Part shown: positions 1 through 7,441 of the stretch, piece after piece
Layout of the letters: each line of letters opens with the position of its first letter
Position numbering within the stretch: position 1 is the first letter of the stretch
Source of the DNA: Flavobacterium litorale
GTDB lineage: Bacteria; Bacteroidota; Bacteroidia; Flavobacteriales; Flavobacteriaceae
Assembly: GCF_019613795.1 (NCBI RefSeq)
Contig: NZ_CP080429.1
Location: 2,661,096-2,725,095 of the forward strand
Reading direction: 5' to 3'
Length of the DNA stretch: 64,000 nt
Made by a program: the position numbers and the translations under genes
Notes under the pieces: generated by a model
The model's input: the letters and a program-made list of their open reading frames with translations, nothing else
Database searches by the model: none
What the model was told of the DNA's origin: nothing

Positions 1-115
1 AATACGTCCCAAAGACCAGATTAAATATTTTCACAAGAAAGTTATCATTATTTATTGAAAAATAAATTACTGTAAATCAATTGTTTAAAAAATATAATCA
101 AAATTAAATAAATTA

Positions 116-322
116 TCACGCTACGCTATAATTATTATGCATATATTTGCAACAGACATAATGGATAAAACATATCATTCAGACCACATTAGAGTTGAAG
201 AACTTTGAATACCTCATAAGTATTTTTGAAGTGCGCTTCTTATGTCATTTAACTGTACTGTCTAAGCTAGACACGTTTAATAATTAAATCACTATTAAGC
301 ATTTTAATTATGCGTAGCGTGA
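116..322. repeat. Inverted repeat pair flanking a promoter and a CRISPR-repeat-like element
   Basis: Positions 116-140 and the reverse complement of 299-322 agree at about 22 of 25 positions, including an uninterrupted 11-mer (GCGTAGCGTGA on the guide strand) and, past one extra base, a further 7-base run. The left arm lies just upstream of a TAnnTTTG promoter box. The right arm directly abuts a degenerate CRISPR repeat at 323, exactly where a crRNA spacer would be. Either this is a hairpin-like DNA element, or the right arm is a guide and the left arm its target. Confidence 0.75.
142..149 (+). promoter_or_regulatory. Putative flavobacterial -7 promoter box TATATTTG
   Basis: TATATTTG is a perfect match to the Bacteroidota -7 consensus TAnnTTTG. 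No clear TTG is seen at -33; that position (about 116-126) is occupied by the inverted-repeat arm TCACGCTACGC. Transcription would start near 156 and run rightwards through the degenerate repeat at 323. No open reading frame of convincing length follows, so the product would be an RNA. Confidence 0.5.
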
Positions 323-377
323 GTTGTGAATTGATTTCAAAATTGTTATTTACAAAATTAGGCAGTACAGTTTTTTA
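156..377 (+). ncRNA. Candidate scaRNA/CreR-like guide RNA with a solitary degenerate CRISPR repeat
   Basis: A plus-strand RNA starting after the TATATTTG box would carry at 323-346 a sequence identical at 23 of 24 positions to the crRNA-sense 5' part of the array repeat, the part that pairs with tracrRNA. The bases just before it (293-322) occupy the spacer position; their last 11 bases match the minus strand at 116-126 exactly. Positions 251-265 (AACTGTACTGTCTAA) and 358-372 (TTAGGCAGTACAGTT) form a 15-pair stem with one G-U pair, followed by a T-run at 371-376 that may end the RNA. Short guides of about 11-15 nt direct Cas9 to repress without cutting in Francisella scaRNA and Streptococcus tracr-L. 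Expression and function here are inferred. Confidence 0.42.
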
Positions 378-620: not shown

Positions 621-3600
621 ATGAAAAAAATATTAGGACTTGATTTAGGCTCTGCCTCTATAGGCTGGGCATTCGTACATGAAGATGATATAGACAAAAA
701 ATCTGAAATTATAAATACTGGAGTTCGTATTGTACCACTAACTACAGAAGAGGAATCGGACTTTAAAAAAGGAAATACCATTTCTATTAATGCCGACAGA
801 ACACTGAAACGTGGAGCAAGGAGAAACTTACAACGTTTTAAACTAAGGCGTGAGGCTTTACTTGAAATTTTTAAAGAAGCTGGATTTATACCACAGGATT
901 ATCATTATGCCGAAGATGGAGAGAATACTACTTTTTCTACTTACGAATTAAGGGCTAAAGCAGCAACCGAGATGATTTCGAAAGAAGAGTTAGTCAAAGT
1001 ACTGCTAATGATTAATAAAAAACGGGGCTATAAAAGCAGCCGTAAAGCAAAATCGGAAGAAGAAGGGCAGGCAATTGACGGTATGGCGATAGCCAAAGAG
1101 CTATATACTAAAAATATCACTCCTGGGCAGTGGGTATATACCAGCCTATCCGAAGGCGGAAAGTACATTCCTGACTTTTACCGTTCTGACCTTATTAGCG
1201 AATTTGAAAAAATTGTACGCTTCCAGAATCAGTTTTATCCTGAAATTTTTAATGATAAACTGTTGGAAGTTATAAAAGTTGAGAAATCCAAAGTTTCCGA
1301 TTATTTCAAGACATTACATATAGAGCTTGCCGAAAATAAAGGTAATTATCAGGAAAAAAGATTACAACAATATGAATGGCGGGCTAATGCTGTAAAGCAG
1401 GAATTAACCCCACAAGAAACTGCTTATATACTAACGGAGATTAAGAAGCAGATTAATAACTCAAGTGGTTATTTAGGCGCTATTAGCGACCGCAGTAAAG
1501 AATTGTATTTTGATAGCCTTACCGTAGGGCAATATCTGTATCAACAACTTAAAGAAAATTCACATAATAGCCTGAAAAACCAAGTGTTTTACCGTCAGGA
1601 TTATATGGACGAGTTTGATAAAATATGGAAAATACAATCAAAGCATCATAAAGAACTCACCGAAGCACTTAGAAAAGAAGTTAGAGATATTACTATTTTT
1701 TACCAAAGGCGTTTAAAATCGCAAAAACACCTGATAAGCCACTGCGAATTTGAAAAACAGCATAGGGTTATCCCAAAATCATCTCCCCTATTTCAGGAGT
1801 TCAGGATATGGCAAAACATTAATGCTATTGTTATTAAAAATACTGAAACAAAAGAAACCTTGCTTTTAGATGAAGATGCTAAAGATAGCCTTAGTGAGGC
1901 ACTAAACTTTAAAGATAATTTAACCGATTTACAGCTTCTTAAATTCTTTAATCTGGATAAACGAGTGCATGAGGTTAACTTTAAAAAAATTGAAGGTAAC
2001 AGAACCAATACAGCATTGTATAAGGCTTTTGAAGCTATTTTACGACAGGAAGGACAGGATGCCCTTGACTTCTCTAAAATGGATGCTGAGGATATAAAGA
2101 GTACAACAGCATTATTATTTAAGGACCTGAATATTGATACCCATATTATAGATTTTAATGCTGAGCTACAAGGTAATGACTTTGACAAACAACCATATTA
2201 CCAGTTATGGCACCTACTCTATTCGGCAGAAGATGATGCTAAACTAAAAGATACATTACAGGAAAAATTTGGCTTTAAGCCAGAACACACGCACCATATT
2301 GCTAATGTAGACCTGCAAGCTGATTATGGTAACTTGAGTGCTAAAGCGATAAAAAAGATACTCCCTGAGTTAAAAGATGGGCATATGTATGATAAAGCAT
2401 GCGATATGGCGGGCTACAATCATTCTTCATCATTAACAAAAGAAGAGAATGAGAACAGACCTCTAAAAGAAAAATTGGAACTTCTAAAAAAGAATAGTCT
2501 TCGTAATCCTGTGGTTGAGAAAATACTTAATCAAATGATAAATCTGGTTAATGCTATTATTGCCGACCCTACAATGGGAACGCCTAATGACATACGCGTA
2601 GAATTAGCTCGTGAACTTAAGGCGAACAGTGAACAGCGTGGGGAAATGACTAGGGCAATAAATAAAGCTACGAAAGAACATGAAGAGATAAGAAAATTAC
2701 TAAAATCGGAATTTGGCATACCAAGAGTAACACGAAATGATATTATACGCTATAAACTATGGAAAGAAACGAATGGTATATCTATATATACAGGTAAGTG
2801 CATAGAGGCATCTAAACTATTTACTAAAGAATACGATATTGAACATATAATACCCAAATCACGATTGTTTGATGATAGTTTTTCTAATAAAACGCTTTGC
2901 GAAAGGCAATTTAATATTGATAAAGCCAACCGTACTGCATTCTCAATCTGTCAAGAGAAACATAGCGAATTTGAGTTCGAACAATATCAAAAACGTGTTA
3001 ATGAATTGTTTACATCTGGTAAGATAAAATATACTAAATACAAAAAGCTCTTAATGGCTGACAATGAAATCCCAGAAGGGTTTATTGAAAGGCAGTTAAG
3101 AGAGTCACAGTATATTGCCAAAAAAGCTAAAGAATTGTTACAGGAAGTTTCAAGAAATGTAACTCCTACTATTGGAAGTATTACCGATAGGCTACGTGAA
3201 GACTGGGAATTGATTGAAGTAATGAAAGAACTTAACTGGGACAAGTACCATAAACTGGGACTTACCAGAGAAGAAACGGGTAAAGGCGGTGAGCGTTTAC
3301 GAAAAATTAATGACTGGACGAAACGTAACGACCACCGCCACCACGCTATGGATGCTCTAACGGTAGCTTTTACAAAACCACAATATATTAATTATTTAAA
3401 TAACCTTAATGCTAGAGATAGAGATGGTAAAAAGATTAATAGTATATTAGGTATCGAAGAAAAATACTTAGAGTATAAAAAGGGTAAACTAAAATTCAAA
3501 TCACCCATTCCAAATTTTAGAGAAGAAGCGAAAAAACATTTAGAAAACATTATTGTTTCGTATAAGGCGAAGAATAAAGTAGTTACTAAGAATAAGAATA

Positions 3601-4670
3601 TTACTAAAACAGCTAAAGGTACCAATAGTAAAATACAACTTACACCACGTGGGCAACTACATAAGGAAACAGTATATGGTAAAATAGTACAGTATAATAA
3701 AAAACAGGTAAAAGTAAATGCAGGCTTTACTGCCGATGTTATTAAGCAGGTAGTTAATGCAGCATATAAAGATGCTTTGTTAACGCGTTTGGAAGCTAAT
3801 GACGGCGATCCTAAAAAGGCATTTACAGGTAAAAACTCACTAACCAAAAACCCCGTTTACTTAAATAATAATACTCAGGTTGTTCCTGATAAAGTAGAAA
3901 TATCGTCCCCCATAGAGGTGTATACGATACGAAAAGAGGTTACTCCTGATAACTTTAAAGATGAGAGAAGCATCAATAAAGTTATTGACGCTAAAGTAAG
4001 AGAATTGCTTTTAAACCGACTAAGGGAATATGGCGATGCTAAAAAAGCTTTTTCAAATCTTACTGAAAACCCTATTTGTTTAAATAGAGAAGAAAATATA
4101 ACTGTAAAACGAGTTACTATAAGTGGTGTTAGTAATGTAGAAGCATTGCATACCAAAAAAGACCATAATGGCAACGAAATTTTGGATAACAAAGGTAAAC
4201 CTATTCCTACTGATTTTGTGAGTACTGGTAATAACCATCATGTAGCCATTTACAGGGATGACAGAGGCAACTTACAAGAAGAGGTTGTTTCTTTTTACGA
4301 GGCTGTAATACGCAAAAATTTAGGGCTTCCTATTATTGATAAAAATCATAAAAATGGGTGGGAGTTTTTATTTACCATGAAACAAAATGAGTTTTTTGTT
4401 TTCCCAAATACTGAAACTGGTTTTGACCCTGAAACTATTGATTTACTTGATCCTAAAAACAGGGAACTAATTAGCCCTAATTTATTTAGAGTGCAAAAAA
4501 TAGCGACAAAAAATTATTATTTCAGACATCATCTTGAAACCACAGTTGAAGATAAAAAAGAGCTGAAAAATATTACCTATAAACCAATACAAAGCCTTAA
4601 ACCTATTGAACCTATCATAAAAGTAAGAGTCAATCATTTAGGACATATAGTACAAGTCGGAGAATATTAA
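621..4670 (+). CDS. cas9: CRISPR-associated endonuclease Cas9, type II-C
   Basis: RNA-guided DNA endonuclease of 1349 aa, the usual size of Bacteroidota II-C enzymes. All nuclease signatures are present: RuvC-I motif LGLDLGSASIGW with Asp8, RuvC-II IRVELAREL with Glu661, the HNH motif YDIEHIIPKS with His742, and RuvC-III NDHRHHAMDAL with His908 and Asp911. An arginine-rich bridge helix (LKRGARRNLQRFKLRRE) follows RuvC-I. The C-terminal third should hold the PAM-interacting domain. No Shine-Dalgarno is evident, as is normal for this phylum. It is the first gene of the cas9-cas1-cas2 operon, with 11 bp to cas1; the absence of csn2 and cas4 gives subtype II-C. The enzyme appears intact and active. 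Confidence 0.97.
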   Translation: MKKILGLDLGSASIGWAFVHEDDIDKKSEIINTGVRIVPLTTEEESDFKKGNTISINADRTLKRGARRNLQRFKLRREALLEIFKEAGFIPQDYHYAEDGENTTFSTYELRAKAATEMISKEELVKVLLMINKKRGYKSSRKAKSEEEGQAIDGMAIAKELYTKNITPGQWVYTSLSEGGKYIPDFYRSDLISEFEKIVRFQNQFYPEIFNDKLLEVIKVEKSKVSDYFKTLHIELAENKGNYQEKRLQQYEWRANAVKQELTPQETAYILTEIKKQINNSSGYLGAISDRSKELYFDSLTVGQYLYQQLKENSHNSLKNQVFYRQDYMDEFDKIWKIQSKHHKELTEALRKEVRDITIFYQRRLKSQKHLISHCEFEKQHRVIPKSSPLFQEFRIWQNINAIVIKNTETKETLLLDEDAKDSLSEALNFKDNLTDLQLLKFFNLDKRVHEVNFKKIEGNRTNTALYKAFEAILRQEGQDALDFSKMDAEDIKSTTALLFKDLNIDTHIIDFNAELQGNDFDKQPYYQLWHLLYSAEDDAKLKDTLQEKFGFKPEHTHHIANVDLQADYGNLSAKAIKKILPELKDGHMYDKACDMAGYNHSSSLTKEENENRPLKEKLELLKKNSLRNPVVEKILNQMINLVNAIIADPTMGTPNDIRVELARELKANSEQRGEMTRAINKATKEHEEIRKLLKSEFGIPRVTRNDIIRYKLWKETNGISIYTGKCIEASKLFTKEYDIEHIIPKSRLFDDSFSNKTLCERQFNIDKANRTAFSICQEKHSEFEFEQYQKRVNELFTSGKIKYTKYKKLLMADNEIPEGFIERQLRESQYIAKKAKELLQEVSRNVTPTIGSITDRLREDWELIEVMKELNWDKYHKLGLTREETGKGGERLRKINDWTKRNDHRHHAMDALTVAFTKPQYINYLNNLNARDRDGKKINSILGIEEKYLEYKKGKLKFKSPIPNFREEAKKHLENIIVSYKAKNKVVTKNKNITKTAKGTNSKIQLTPRGQLHKETVYGKIVQYNKKQVKVNAGFTADVIKQVVNAAYKDALLTRLEANDGDPKKAFTGKNSLTKNPVYLNNNTQVVPDKVEISSPIEVYTIRKEVTPDNFKDERSINKVIDAKVRELLLNRLREYGDAKKAFSNLTENPICLNREENITVKRVTISGVSNVEALHTKKDHNGNEILDNKGKPIPTDFVSTGNNHHVAIYRDDRGNLQEEVVSFYEAVIRKNLGLPIIDKNHKNGWEFLFTMKQNEFFVFPNTETGFDPETIDLLDPKNRELISPNLFRVQKIATKNYYFRHHLETTVEDKKELKNITYKPIQSLKPIEPIIKVRVNHLGHIVQVGEY

Positions 4671-4681
4671 TCTATCAAGAT

Positions 4682-5918
<1,237 letters not shown>

Positions 5919-6032: not shown

Positions 6033-7441
6033 GTTGGGAATCATGAGTAAAAATACAATTTTGAAAGCAATTCACAACTTTAAAGATAACGATAAAAGTA
6101 CGAATTTTGTTGGGAATCATGAGTAAAAATACAATTTTGAAAGCAATTCACAACCAGCACGTCCTTTTTAATTTCATCGGCGTGGTTGGGAATCATGAGT
6201 AAAAATACAATTTTGAAAGCAATTCACAACTCAATTATATTTCTAATACTTTTCATAAATGTTGGGAATCATGAGTAAAAATACAATTTTGAAAGCAATT
6301 CACAACATAACCTCCGGTAATGCTACAGTATGTAATGTTGGGAATCATGAGTAAAAATACAATTTTGAAAGCAATTCACAACACGACGGGCGAAGCGGAT
6401 AACCTTAAACTCGTTGGGAATCATGAGTAAAAATACAATTTTGAAAGCAATTCACAACTCTTTTACAATGTAAGAACCAGGCTTCCACGTTGGGAATCAT
6501 GAGTAAAAATACAATTTTGAAAGCAATTCACAACAATCTCGTCATTGAATATTTTATCCACTAAGTTGGGAATCATGAGTAAAAATACAATTTTGAAAGC
6601 AATTCACAACGTACCTTGTTAGGGAATCGAACCCAACCCGTTGGGAATCATGAGTAAAAATACAATTTTGAAAGCAATTCACAACGGAGGCAGGCGCAGG
6701 AACGGCAGCCGAAAGTTGGGAATCATGAGTAAAAATACAATTTTGAAAGCAATTCACAACGGAATGATAGCAGGCAAGACAATAGATGCAGTTGGGAATC
6801 ATGAGTAAAAATACAATTTTGAAAGCAATTCACAACAGTCAATTAGTTTTTCCATTTTGAATATAGTTGGGAATCATGAGTAAAAATACAATTTTGAAAG
6901 CAATTCACAACTCAATGATACCTAACACAGTAATACCTTCGGTTGGGAATCATGAGTAAAAATACAATTTTGAAAGCAATTCACAACAGTACTATAAACT
7001 ACAAAAACATATATCTAGTTGGGAATCATGAGTAAAAATACAATTTTGAAAGCAATTCACAACAAATAAATAATCATCAATCTCATTAATCTCGTTGGGA
7101 ATCATGAGTAAAAATACAATTTTGAAAGCAATTCACAACTGTAAAGGTTAGCTTTGTCTATTTTATGGTGTTGGGAATCATGAGTAAAAATACAATTTTG
7201 AAAGCAATTCACAACAAGAACCTTATTTATTTTACGTATGAGTCGTTGGGAATCATGAGTAAAAATACAATTTTGAAAGCAATTCACAACGACAATTGAG
7301 CGAACATTTGAGCAAAAATAGTTGGGAATCATGAGTAAAAATACAATTTTGAAAGCAATTCACAACATAGATTTTATGCTACATTTTATCCATTAGTTGG
7401 GAATCATGAATAAAAATACAATTTTGAAAGCAATTCACCCT
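6033..7441 (-). CRISPR. Type II-C CRISPR array, 19 repeats and 18 spacers
   Basis: Repeats of 46 bp start at 6033, 6109, 6185, 6261, 6337, 6413, 6489, 6565, 6640, 6715, 6791, 6866, 6942, 7018, 7094, 7170, 7245, 7321 and 7396. In crRNA sense (minus strand) the repeat begins GTTGTGAATTGCTTTC and ends GATTCCCAAC. Spacers are 29 or 30 bp and all different. The 18 inner repeats are identical by eye; the last one (7396-7441) has G-to-A at its base 15 and a diverged end. This fits II-C biology, in which the degenerate repeat lies at the upstream end of transcription and the adaptation end faces cas2. Spacer 6611-6639 resembles the 3' part of a tRNA gene. Confidence 0.98.

Follow-up and report, generated by a model that had tools for sequence, protein, structure and literature searches.

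A predicted guide RNA matching its own promoter in a type II-C CRISPR locus of Flavobacterium litorale, with candidate counterparts in other Bacteroidota

RNA-guided repression by CRISPR effectors is known from type II-A (tracr-L), from type II-B (scaRNA) and from types I and V, where the CreR RNAs come from mini-CRISPRs. Whether a type II-C system may carry an RNA of this kind is the question raised by a solitary half-repeat beside the predicted tracrRNA gene of Flavobacterium litorale, near the start of the 64-kb stretch of DNA analysed here (the window).

The candidate guide RNA and its target in the window

The window opens just upstream of a type II locus in the order tracrRNA, cas9, cas1, cas2 and array. 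The only cas genes found were cas9 (621-4670, plus strand, 1349 aa, TIGR01865), cas1 (4682-5575, plus, type II Cas1, TIGR03639) and cas2 (5568-5918, plus, TIGR01573), which is a II-C layout; the list of open reading frames holds no further same-strand gene between cas9 and the array, so the locus is not of the II-B type. The array (6033-7440) has 18 spacers of about 30 nt between 46-nt repeats, its crRNA sense being taken as the minus strand. The tracrRNA was predicted on the minus strand at 380-460 from its anti-repeat (437-460) and a conserved tail that adjoins cas9 in most of the loci compared; a terminator-like hairpin lies near 389-408 and is followed by T-runs.

The candidate guide RNA, which resembles CreR and scaRNA, would be read from the plus strand at 156-377, both ends being placed from a promoter box, the fold and a hairpin with a T-run. 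The box TATATTTG at 142-149 (plus) fits the TAnnTTTG consensus given for the Bacteroidetes -7 box in the available text of PMC10309648. In the minimum-energy fold of 156-377, a terminator-like hairpin of 15 pairs (251-265 with 358-372) encloses the guide (299-322) and the half-repeat (323-346) and ends in a T-run at 371-376. Of the 24 positions of the half-repeat, 23 agree with the array repeat, and a 23-nt motif of the repeat (one position A or C) recurs exactly at 324-346, the remaining exact matches in the 64 kb all being array repeats. The complement of the tracrRNA anti-repeat (437-459) shows two mismatches to this motif, and shuffled windows gave zero matches. These parts had been named in the original prediction, made from the letters alone; alignment confirmed the repeat identity, and fold and sequence together bore out the hairpin and its T-run. 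When duplexes with the tracrRNA anti-repeat were predicted, the half-repeat gave -25.9 kcal/mol and the array repeat -27.5 kcal/mol, compared with a mean of -6.0 and a lowest value of -14.7 kcal/mol for 200 shuffled half-repeats; by this prediction the solitary element would pair with the tracrRNA nearly as strongly as an array repeat. No repeat was found upstream of the guide. With one half-repeat only, there are no full repeats flanking a spacer of about 30 nt, and the element lacks ordinary array-spacer anatomy.

The match between the guide and the region 116-140, also part of the original prediction, was reproduced by alignment. Eleven exact bases adjoin the repeat (seed 312-322 in the guide), followed by a one-base indel and then partial pairing; in the target, read on the minus strand, these correspond to the seed GCGTAGCGTGA (116-126), identical to the guide 3' end, and to a PAM-distal part (127-140). 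The target is inverted relative to the guide and its seed ends 15 nt before TATATTTG. It occupies the -33 region of the promoter that would drive the guide RNA itself, with the seed at about -40 to -30 relative to the predicted transcription start. The target does not lie directly in front of cas9; the partial match of the guide is instead to the promoter of the RNA that carries it. Within the 64 kb the 11-mer GCGTAGCGTGA occurs exactly twice, in guide and target, and with one mismatch allowed there are 3 matches against 0.30 expected by shuffling; guides placed at random in the neighbourhood find a match of at least 11 nt in 1.25% of cases.

On its PAM side the target carries TAATT (111-115, minus; flank TAATTTATTT), which fits NNRTT. 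Two of the 18 window spacers match the Croceibacter phages P2559S (a 34-nt match at 100% that covers the full 30-nt spacer) and P2559Y (30 nt, 96.7%), and the flanks of these protospacers, GCGTTTGCGC and CAATTTTTTA, have GCGTT and CAATT in the PAM place. The motif NNRTT therefore fits both protospacers and the self-target, as a rule that rests on two protospacers (2 of 18 spacers). The exact seed with an NNRTT flank is found at a single site in the 2.73-Mb genome, and that site is the guide RNA's own promoter.

The region to the left holds a degenerate copy of the tracrRNA tail (9-52, minus, 75% identical to 395-438), which indicates that the region has probably been duplicated. A possible -7 box, TAATTTTG, at 99-106 (minus) points leftward from the self-target, as a consensus match only; together with the degenerate tail it is perhaps a relic of a duplicated tracrRNA. 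The idea that 323-346 belongs to a second, minus-strand tracrRNA was considered and rejected on the absence of the conserved tail there, though the degenerate tail at 9-52 is noted.

Recurrence in cas9 loci of Bacteroidota

The survey covered 199 cas9 loci, 76 of them from named genomes, or 191 after removal of 8 duplicates, some of them partial and without their upstream region. Half-repeats were sought outside arrays and tracrRNA genes at a minimum of 14 of 16 positions, a threshold by which degenerate elements would be missed. Seventeen intergenic solitary half-repeats were found in 16 loci; the other 175 of the 191 loci gave none, a count that includes the loci without an upstream region and would include degenerate elements. 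A credible seed match of 8-12 nt lies near 12 of the 17, the window included. The seeds are 12 nt in Bacteroidia PG1894_40 (L032), L222 (genome G112) and L234 (G618), 11 nt in the window, Litoribacter ruber (L005), Massilibacteroides vaginae (L010), L121 (G480) and L236 (G583), and 10 nt in F. suaedae (L001) and L103 (G206); L104 (G152) and L122 (G507) have 8 and 9 nt, both with further pairing beyond an indel.

Seeds of at least 10 nt were thus seen at 10 of the 17 elements, where about one would be expected, and seeds of at least 11 nt at 8 of 17, while none of 14 half-repeats inside genes reached a match of 8 nt. When guides were shifted by 8-28 nt, 48 of 187 still found at least 8 nt, 22 at least 9, 9 at least 10 and 2 at least 11; decoy motifs reached at least 9 nt in 89 and at least 10 nt in 30 of 1817 cases. 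Since shifted guides often reach 8 or 9 nt, such seeds prove little alone and, given the shifted-guide and decoy rates, only those of at least 10 nt speak for themselves; the short seeds of L104 and L122 accordingly rest on the pairing beyond the indel and on their position. Binomial probabilities are 9e-10 for 10 of 17 at 10 nt or more and 4e-12 for 8 of 17 at 11 nt or more, the elements being treated as independent despite the orthology of L234 and L236. When the motif was relaxed to 12 of 16 positions, the excess became small (24 of 253 elements at 9 nt or more against the 89 of 1817 decoys). A search of 329 genomes of the family for the pattern GTCCAAAC..TTGTGAATT was uninformative, as 10 genomes matched and a reversed control gave a similar 14 matches; one of the matches (G1453) looks like an array spacer.

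The original prediction would have been refuted if guide and target arms drifted independently while the half-repeat persisted. Judged on the set, matching arms are kept by the 12 elements just described, and five elements (those of L076, L100, L102 and L111, and one at 1443 in L104) have no credible seed match; the first three of these resemble array members, and the 8-nt match of the last sits in a T-run. At 1443-1458 of L104, just before cas9, there is besides the self-targeting guide RNA an apparent full-length single repeat with TATCTTTG inside.

Fourteen loci were laid out for comparison, namely the twelve with seed matches and L257 and L258, which were found by homology to L234. In all 14 the target is inverted and lies upstream of the guide RNA's own TAnnTTTG box, these boxes being consensus matches. 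The gap from target to the next box, obtained by subtracting offsets, is 12-20 nt in 11 loci and, with two more counted, 12-31 nt in 13; L032 has a gap of 43 nt. This shared geometry supports the proposal that Cas9 with guide RNA and tracrRNA would sit on the promoter of that guide RNA. A divergent cas9 or cas1 also has the target at most 160 nt upstream of its start in 11 of these loci. The start of the target lies at most 75 nt from the cas9 start in L001, L032, L103, L121, L222, L234 and L236 (53-73 nt in the first five), where the promoters are again consensus matches only, and 158 nt from it in L104; in L010 it lies 42 nt before a cas1-like start. L234 and L236 have the same order, with the target upstream of divergent cas9. 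L257 and L258 carry two tandem targets before cas9, and this order holds there for the nearer one. The guide RNA reads toward cas9 in three loci, the window, L005 and L122. L122 is arranged like the window, where the target is followed by the guide RNA, the opposite-strand tracrRNA and cas9. In L005 only about 20 nt separate the end of the guide RNA's T-run from the start of cas9, so that the guide RNA promoter may also serve cas9.

Guides and targets vary between loci and match within each, giving 11 pairs that differ in sequence among 12 loci, of which two are orthologous. Among the orthologous Chryseobacterium-group loci L255 (= L234), L256 (= L236), L257 and L258, GTGCAGAGTTA is present in both guide and target of L256 and GTACAGAGTTA in both for the other three. 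An old self-targeting spacer was thought unlikely as the source of these matches, because they are only 8-12 nt long and because the single position that sets L256 apart from L255, L257 and L258 is changed in both its guide and its target.

Some loci hold further copies. The inverted seed of L103 is present a second time, inside the RNA, and the same locus carries at about 1261-1305, in the stretch from tracrRNA to guide RNA, an apparent short copy of a cas9 5' end. This copy precedes the longer cas9 frame and suggests that cas9 was replaced by recombination at that site. In L032 a guide-like sequence appears a second time at about 2734-2775 (TTTATTGTGTACAGTAGGT), and the half-repeat that follows it on the opposite strand is a poor one.

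The flanks of the self-targets, whose motifs were read off after the targets had been seen, fall into more than one type and mostly agree with the PAM wherever one could be judged. NNRTT fits L001 (GAGTT), L005 (AGGTT), L032 (GAATT), L103 (GAGTT) and L104 (GGATT), and L010 has GAGTC. In a group with another Cas9 (L222, L234, L236, L257 and L258) the targets carry NNAAAT, and AAAAC in L121 and TAAAC in L122 fit neither motif. The PAM given for F. columnare Cas9 in the available part of PMC8092290, NNNNNTAAA, agrees with the targets of L222 and L234 and not with those of L236, L257 and L258; for Fp2Cas9 the accessible text of PMC12609912 gives NNAAAG, refined to SNAAAG. One spacer of G152, the genome to which L104 belongs, has a match in F. 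columnare phages (29 nt, 93.1%), and the flank there is TAATC. The Cas9 of G201, a genome in which no element was found, is 68% identical to that of the window and has two protospacers with GAAAC and GAGAC (GARAC), which indicates that the PAMs of relatives differ. For the arrays of L175, L001 and L172 the phage matches were weak only, besides repeat-like matches in Riemerella phages. Phage CRP19 (L211, about 2500-2750) carries a II-C-type mini-array with two identical spacers and phage RAP44 (L316, about 400-515) a shorter II-C-type repeat unit, both near a dinD-like gene and with matches at like places in related phages; these are possibly a phage mini-array or an RNA anti-CRISPR.

The part of the RNA before the guide differs among loci. 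A 5' hairpin with the loop GUCCAAA is found in L001, L121, L222 and L255-L258 and as a variant in L032, and the window is without it. Across the 8 sequences its 5 pairs comprise 40 cells, of which 95% form standard pairs. The covariation score of 0.85 compares with 0.27 for shuffles and was reached by 0 of 500; four of the five pairs vary in both partners, a number also attained by 108 of 500 shuffles. The rows were chosen, and cut at the loop, by hand, so this covariation serves as supporting evidence only. The window and L104 have GACCACATTAGAGTT in common in the same part of the RNA, with a local score of 35 where the best of 300 shuffles reached 30, a weak sign because a stretch of L016 scores higher (40). 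Partly by eye, a long hairpin enclosing guide and half-repeat with a T-run at its end was recognized in the window, L005 and L104, and a hairpin and T-run directly after the half-repeat in L010, L103, L121, L222 and L255-L258; no clear terminator was seen by the same means in L001, L032 and L122.

Proposed feedback and the rival explanations

The anatomy of the element, its seed, the PAM-like flank, the locus-wise matching of guide and target and the position at the RNA's own promoter are established at the level of sequence. We infer from them transcription of the guide RNA, its loading into Cas9, repression and sensing. With a probability of roughly 0.8, the plus strand of 156-377 would encode a small, tracrRNA-dependent II-C counterpart of CreR, scaRNA and tracr-L, with which Cas9 would bind without cutting and limit the guide RNA and, in most loci, cas9; these odds rest on the seeds of at least 10 nt and on the geometry. 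The half-repeat would pair with the opposite-strand tracrRNA (380-460) and so enter Cas9, and the 11-nt seed with its NNRTT flank would bring Cas9 to 111-126. Given the one-base indel and the mismatches beyond the seed, Cas9 should bind there and block RNA polymerase and not cut. The outcome would be negative feedback, in which the RNA, and the divergent cas9 or cas1 in most relatives found, would be made only while free Cas9 is scarce; abundant array crRNA or an anti-CRISPR would lift the block. By analogy, the loop should report free Cas9. In the window cas9 at 621 may respond as well, by read-through.

A more specific reading, which we consider slightly better than an even chance, is that these elements form a so far undescribed family of self-limiting Cas9 guide RNAs in II-C systems of Bacteroidota. 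Their aim would be their own -33 region, mostly shared with divergent cas9 or cas1, and the RNA level would report free Cas9 and thereby sense crRNA supply and anti-CRISPR load; several members would have a second role in the GUCCAAA-loop 5' domain.

The 5' part of the RNA underlies the rival explanation of a CreTA-like addiction module, in which the repressed promoter would make a harmful 5' product (an RNA or tiny peptide from 156-250) and the guide would be a Cas9-dependent antitoxin. A 5' part of about 140 nt does stand behind the targeted promoter, a 15-codon frame starts at 161 (by eye), and the sharing of GACCACATTAGAGTT with L104, weak as it is, and of the GUCCAAA hairpin among other loci would suit such a product. 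It is nevertheless improbable: L103 and L122 leave hardly any space for such a product, their -7 boxes lying 35 and 51 nt before the seed, the reading frame through GACCACATTAGAGTT is not the same in the window as in L104 (by eye), and the closeness of the target to cas9 or cas1 in 11 of 14 loci points elsewhere. An ordinary trans-acting RNA would have a precedent in the Neisseria II-C scaRNA, which is reported to act after transcription and for which the available text of PMC13431127 reports no sequence-guided DNA target, and an inverted repeat might alternatively be the operator of a protein. An operator, however, would need neither an arm fused to a tracrRNA-pairing half-repeat nor a PAM-like flank at the other arm; a protein operator or chance inverted repeat was rejected on recurrence, orientation and flank, and we regard this pair of explanations as the least probable of all.

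Only a little less improbable than these is a decoy or sponge, whose half-repeat would only titrate tracrRNA or Cas9, much as Cas proteins are bound by phage Racr RNAs, while the guide match is incidental. The strong predicted pairing with the anti-repeat agrees with it, but the seed match, its orientation and its position recur in the 11 guide/target pairs of different sequence. Equally improbable is a remnant, that is, a decayed array unit or debris of a tracrRNA duplication with a chance inverted repeat, to which the degenerate tail at 9-52 would point; against it stand a P of about 1e-9 over the survey, a half-repeat that still fits the anti-repeat, and the same architecture with different sequences in other loci.

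If the self-repression reading is true, guided self-repression would extend to the II-C systems of Bacteroidota, and Cas9 sitting on its own locus without cutting would be explained. The loci would serve as natural examples whose sequences reveal seed length, bulges and PAM, and it would become directly testable whether a self-repressed guide lets bacteria measure their free Cas9.

Relation to known systems

The original prediction knew of no such arrangement in II-C loci of Bacteroidota, and the literature searched, a partial coverage without subscription papers and preprints, likewise contained no II-C promoter-targeting guide from this phylum. The element was not filed as scaRNA (II-B), tracr-L or CreR, because a defining feature of scaRNA and one of tracr-L are absent and in the window the target is the promoter of the guide RNA, not directly cas9.

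The scaRNA of Neisseria meningitidis resembles it as a II-C CRISPR-associated small RNA, one that is bound by Cas9, and differs in that no sequence-guided DNA target was found for it, as far as the available text of PMC13431127 goes. The Racr and other solitary repeat units of phages share the single repeat, often right behind a promoter, but Racr is a virus-borne inhibitor without association with cas genes (PMC10651486, in the part available), whereas the window element stands in a host cas locus. The likeness to tracr-L (II-A) is that of a Cas9 repressing its own locus, here predicted; tracr-L, as the accessible part of PMC11417352 describes it, is one long tracrRNA serving as a natural single guide, whereas the window would use a separate RNA and a tracrRNA, and its guide and tracrRNA lie on opposite strands, which does not allow a long-form-tracrRNA guide.

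Closer is the scaRNA of Francisella (II-B), with which the element shares a separate RNA in need of tracrRNA, a repeat-like part pairing with the tracrRNA (by the predicted duplex), short complementarity and, as predicted here, repression of transcription. That scaRNA represses with 9-15 bp next to the PAM at most 20 bp from the transcription start, as quoted in the available text of PMC13431127. The window offers 11 bp and a TAATT flank, but its seed is further upstream, over the -33 region, at a distance from the predicted start that does not clearly agree with the 20-bp rule; the Francisella target is a regulon of four other genes, whereas the target found here is local. CreRs, finally, mediate autorepression in types I-B, I-E and V-A (PMC13131331), which is relieved by crRNA competition or anti-CRISPRs (PMC12737573), both according to the accessible portions of these papers. 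Alike are a crRNA-like gene beside cas genes (323-346 adjoins tracrRNA and cas9) and autorepression, here predicted; a partial match to a cas promoter may be shared by the relatives whose targets start at most 75 nt from cas9. Unlike CreR, the window element belongs to a II-C system, would depend on a tracrRNA and has a single half-repeat at its 3' side, and its constant target is its own promoter, with cas9 or cas1 usually nearby.
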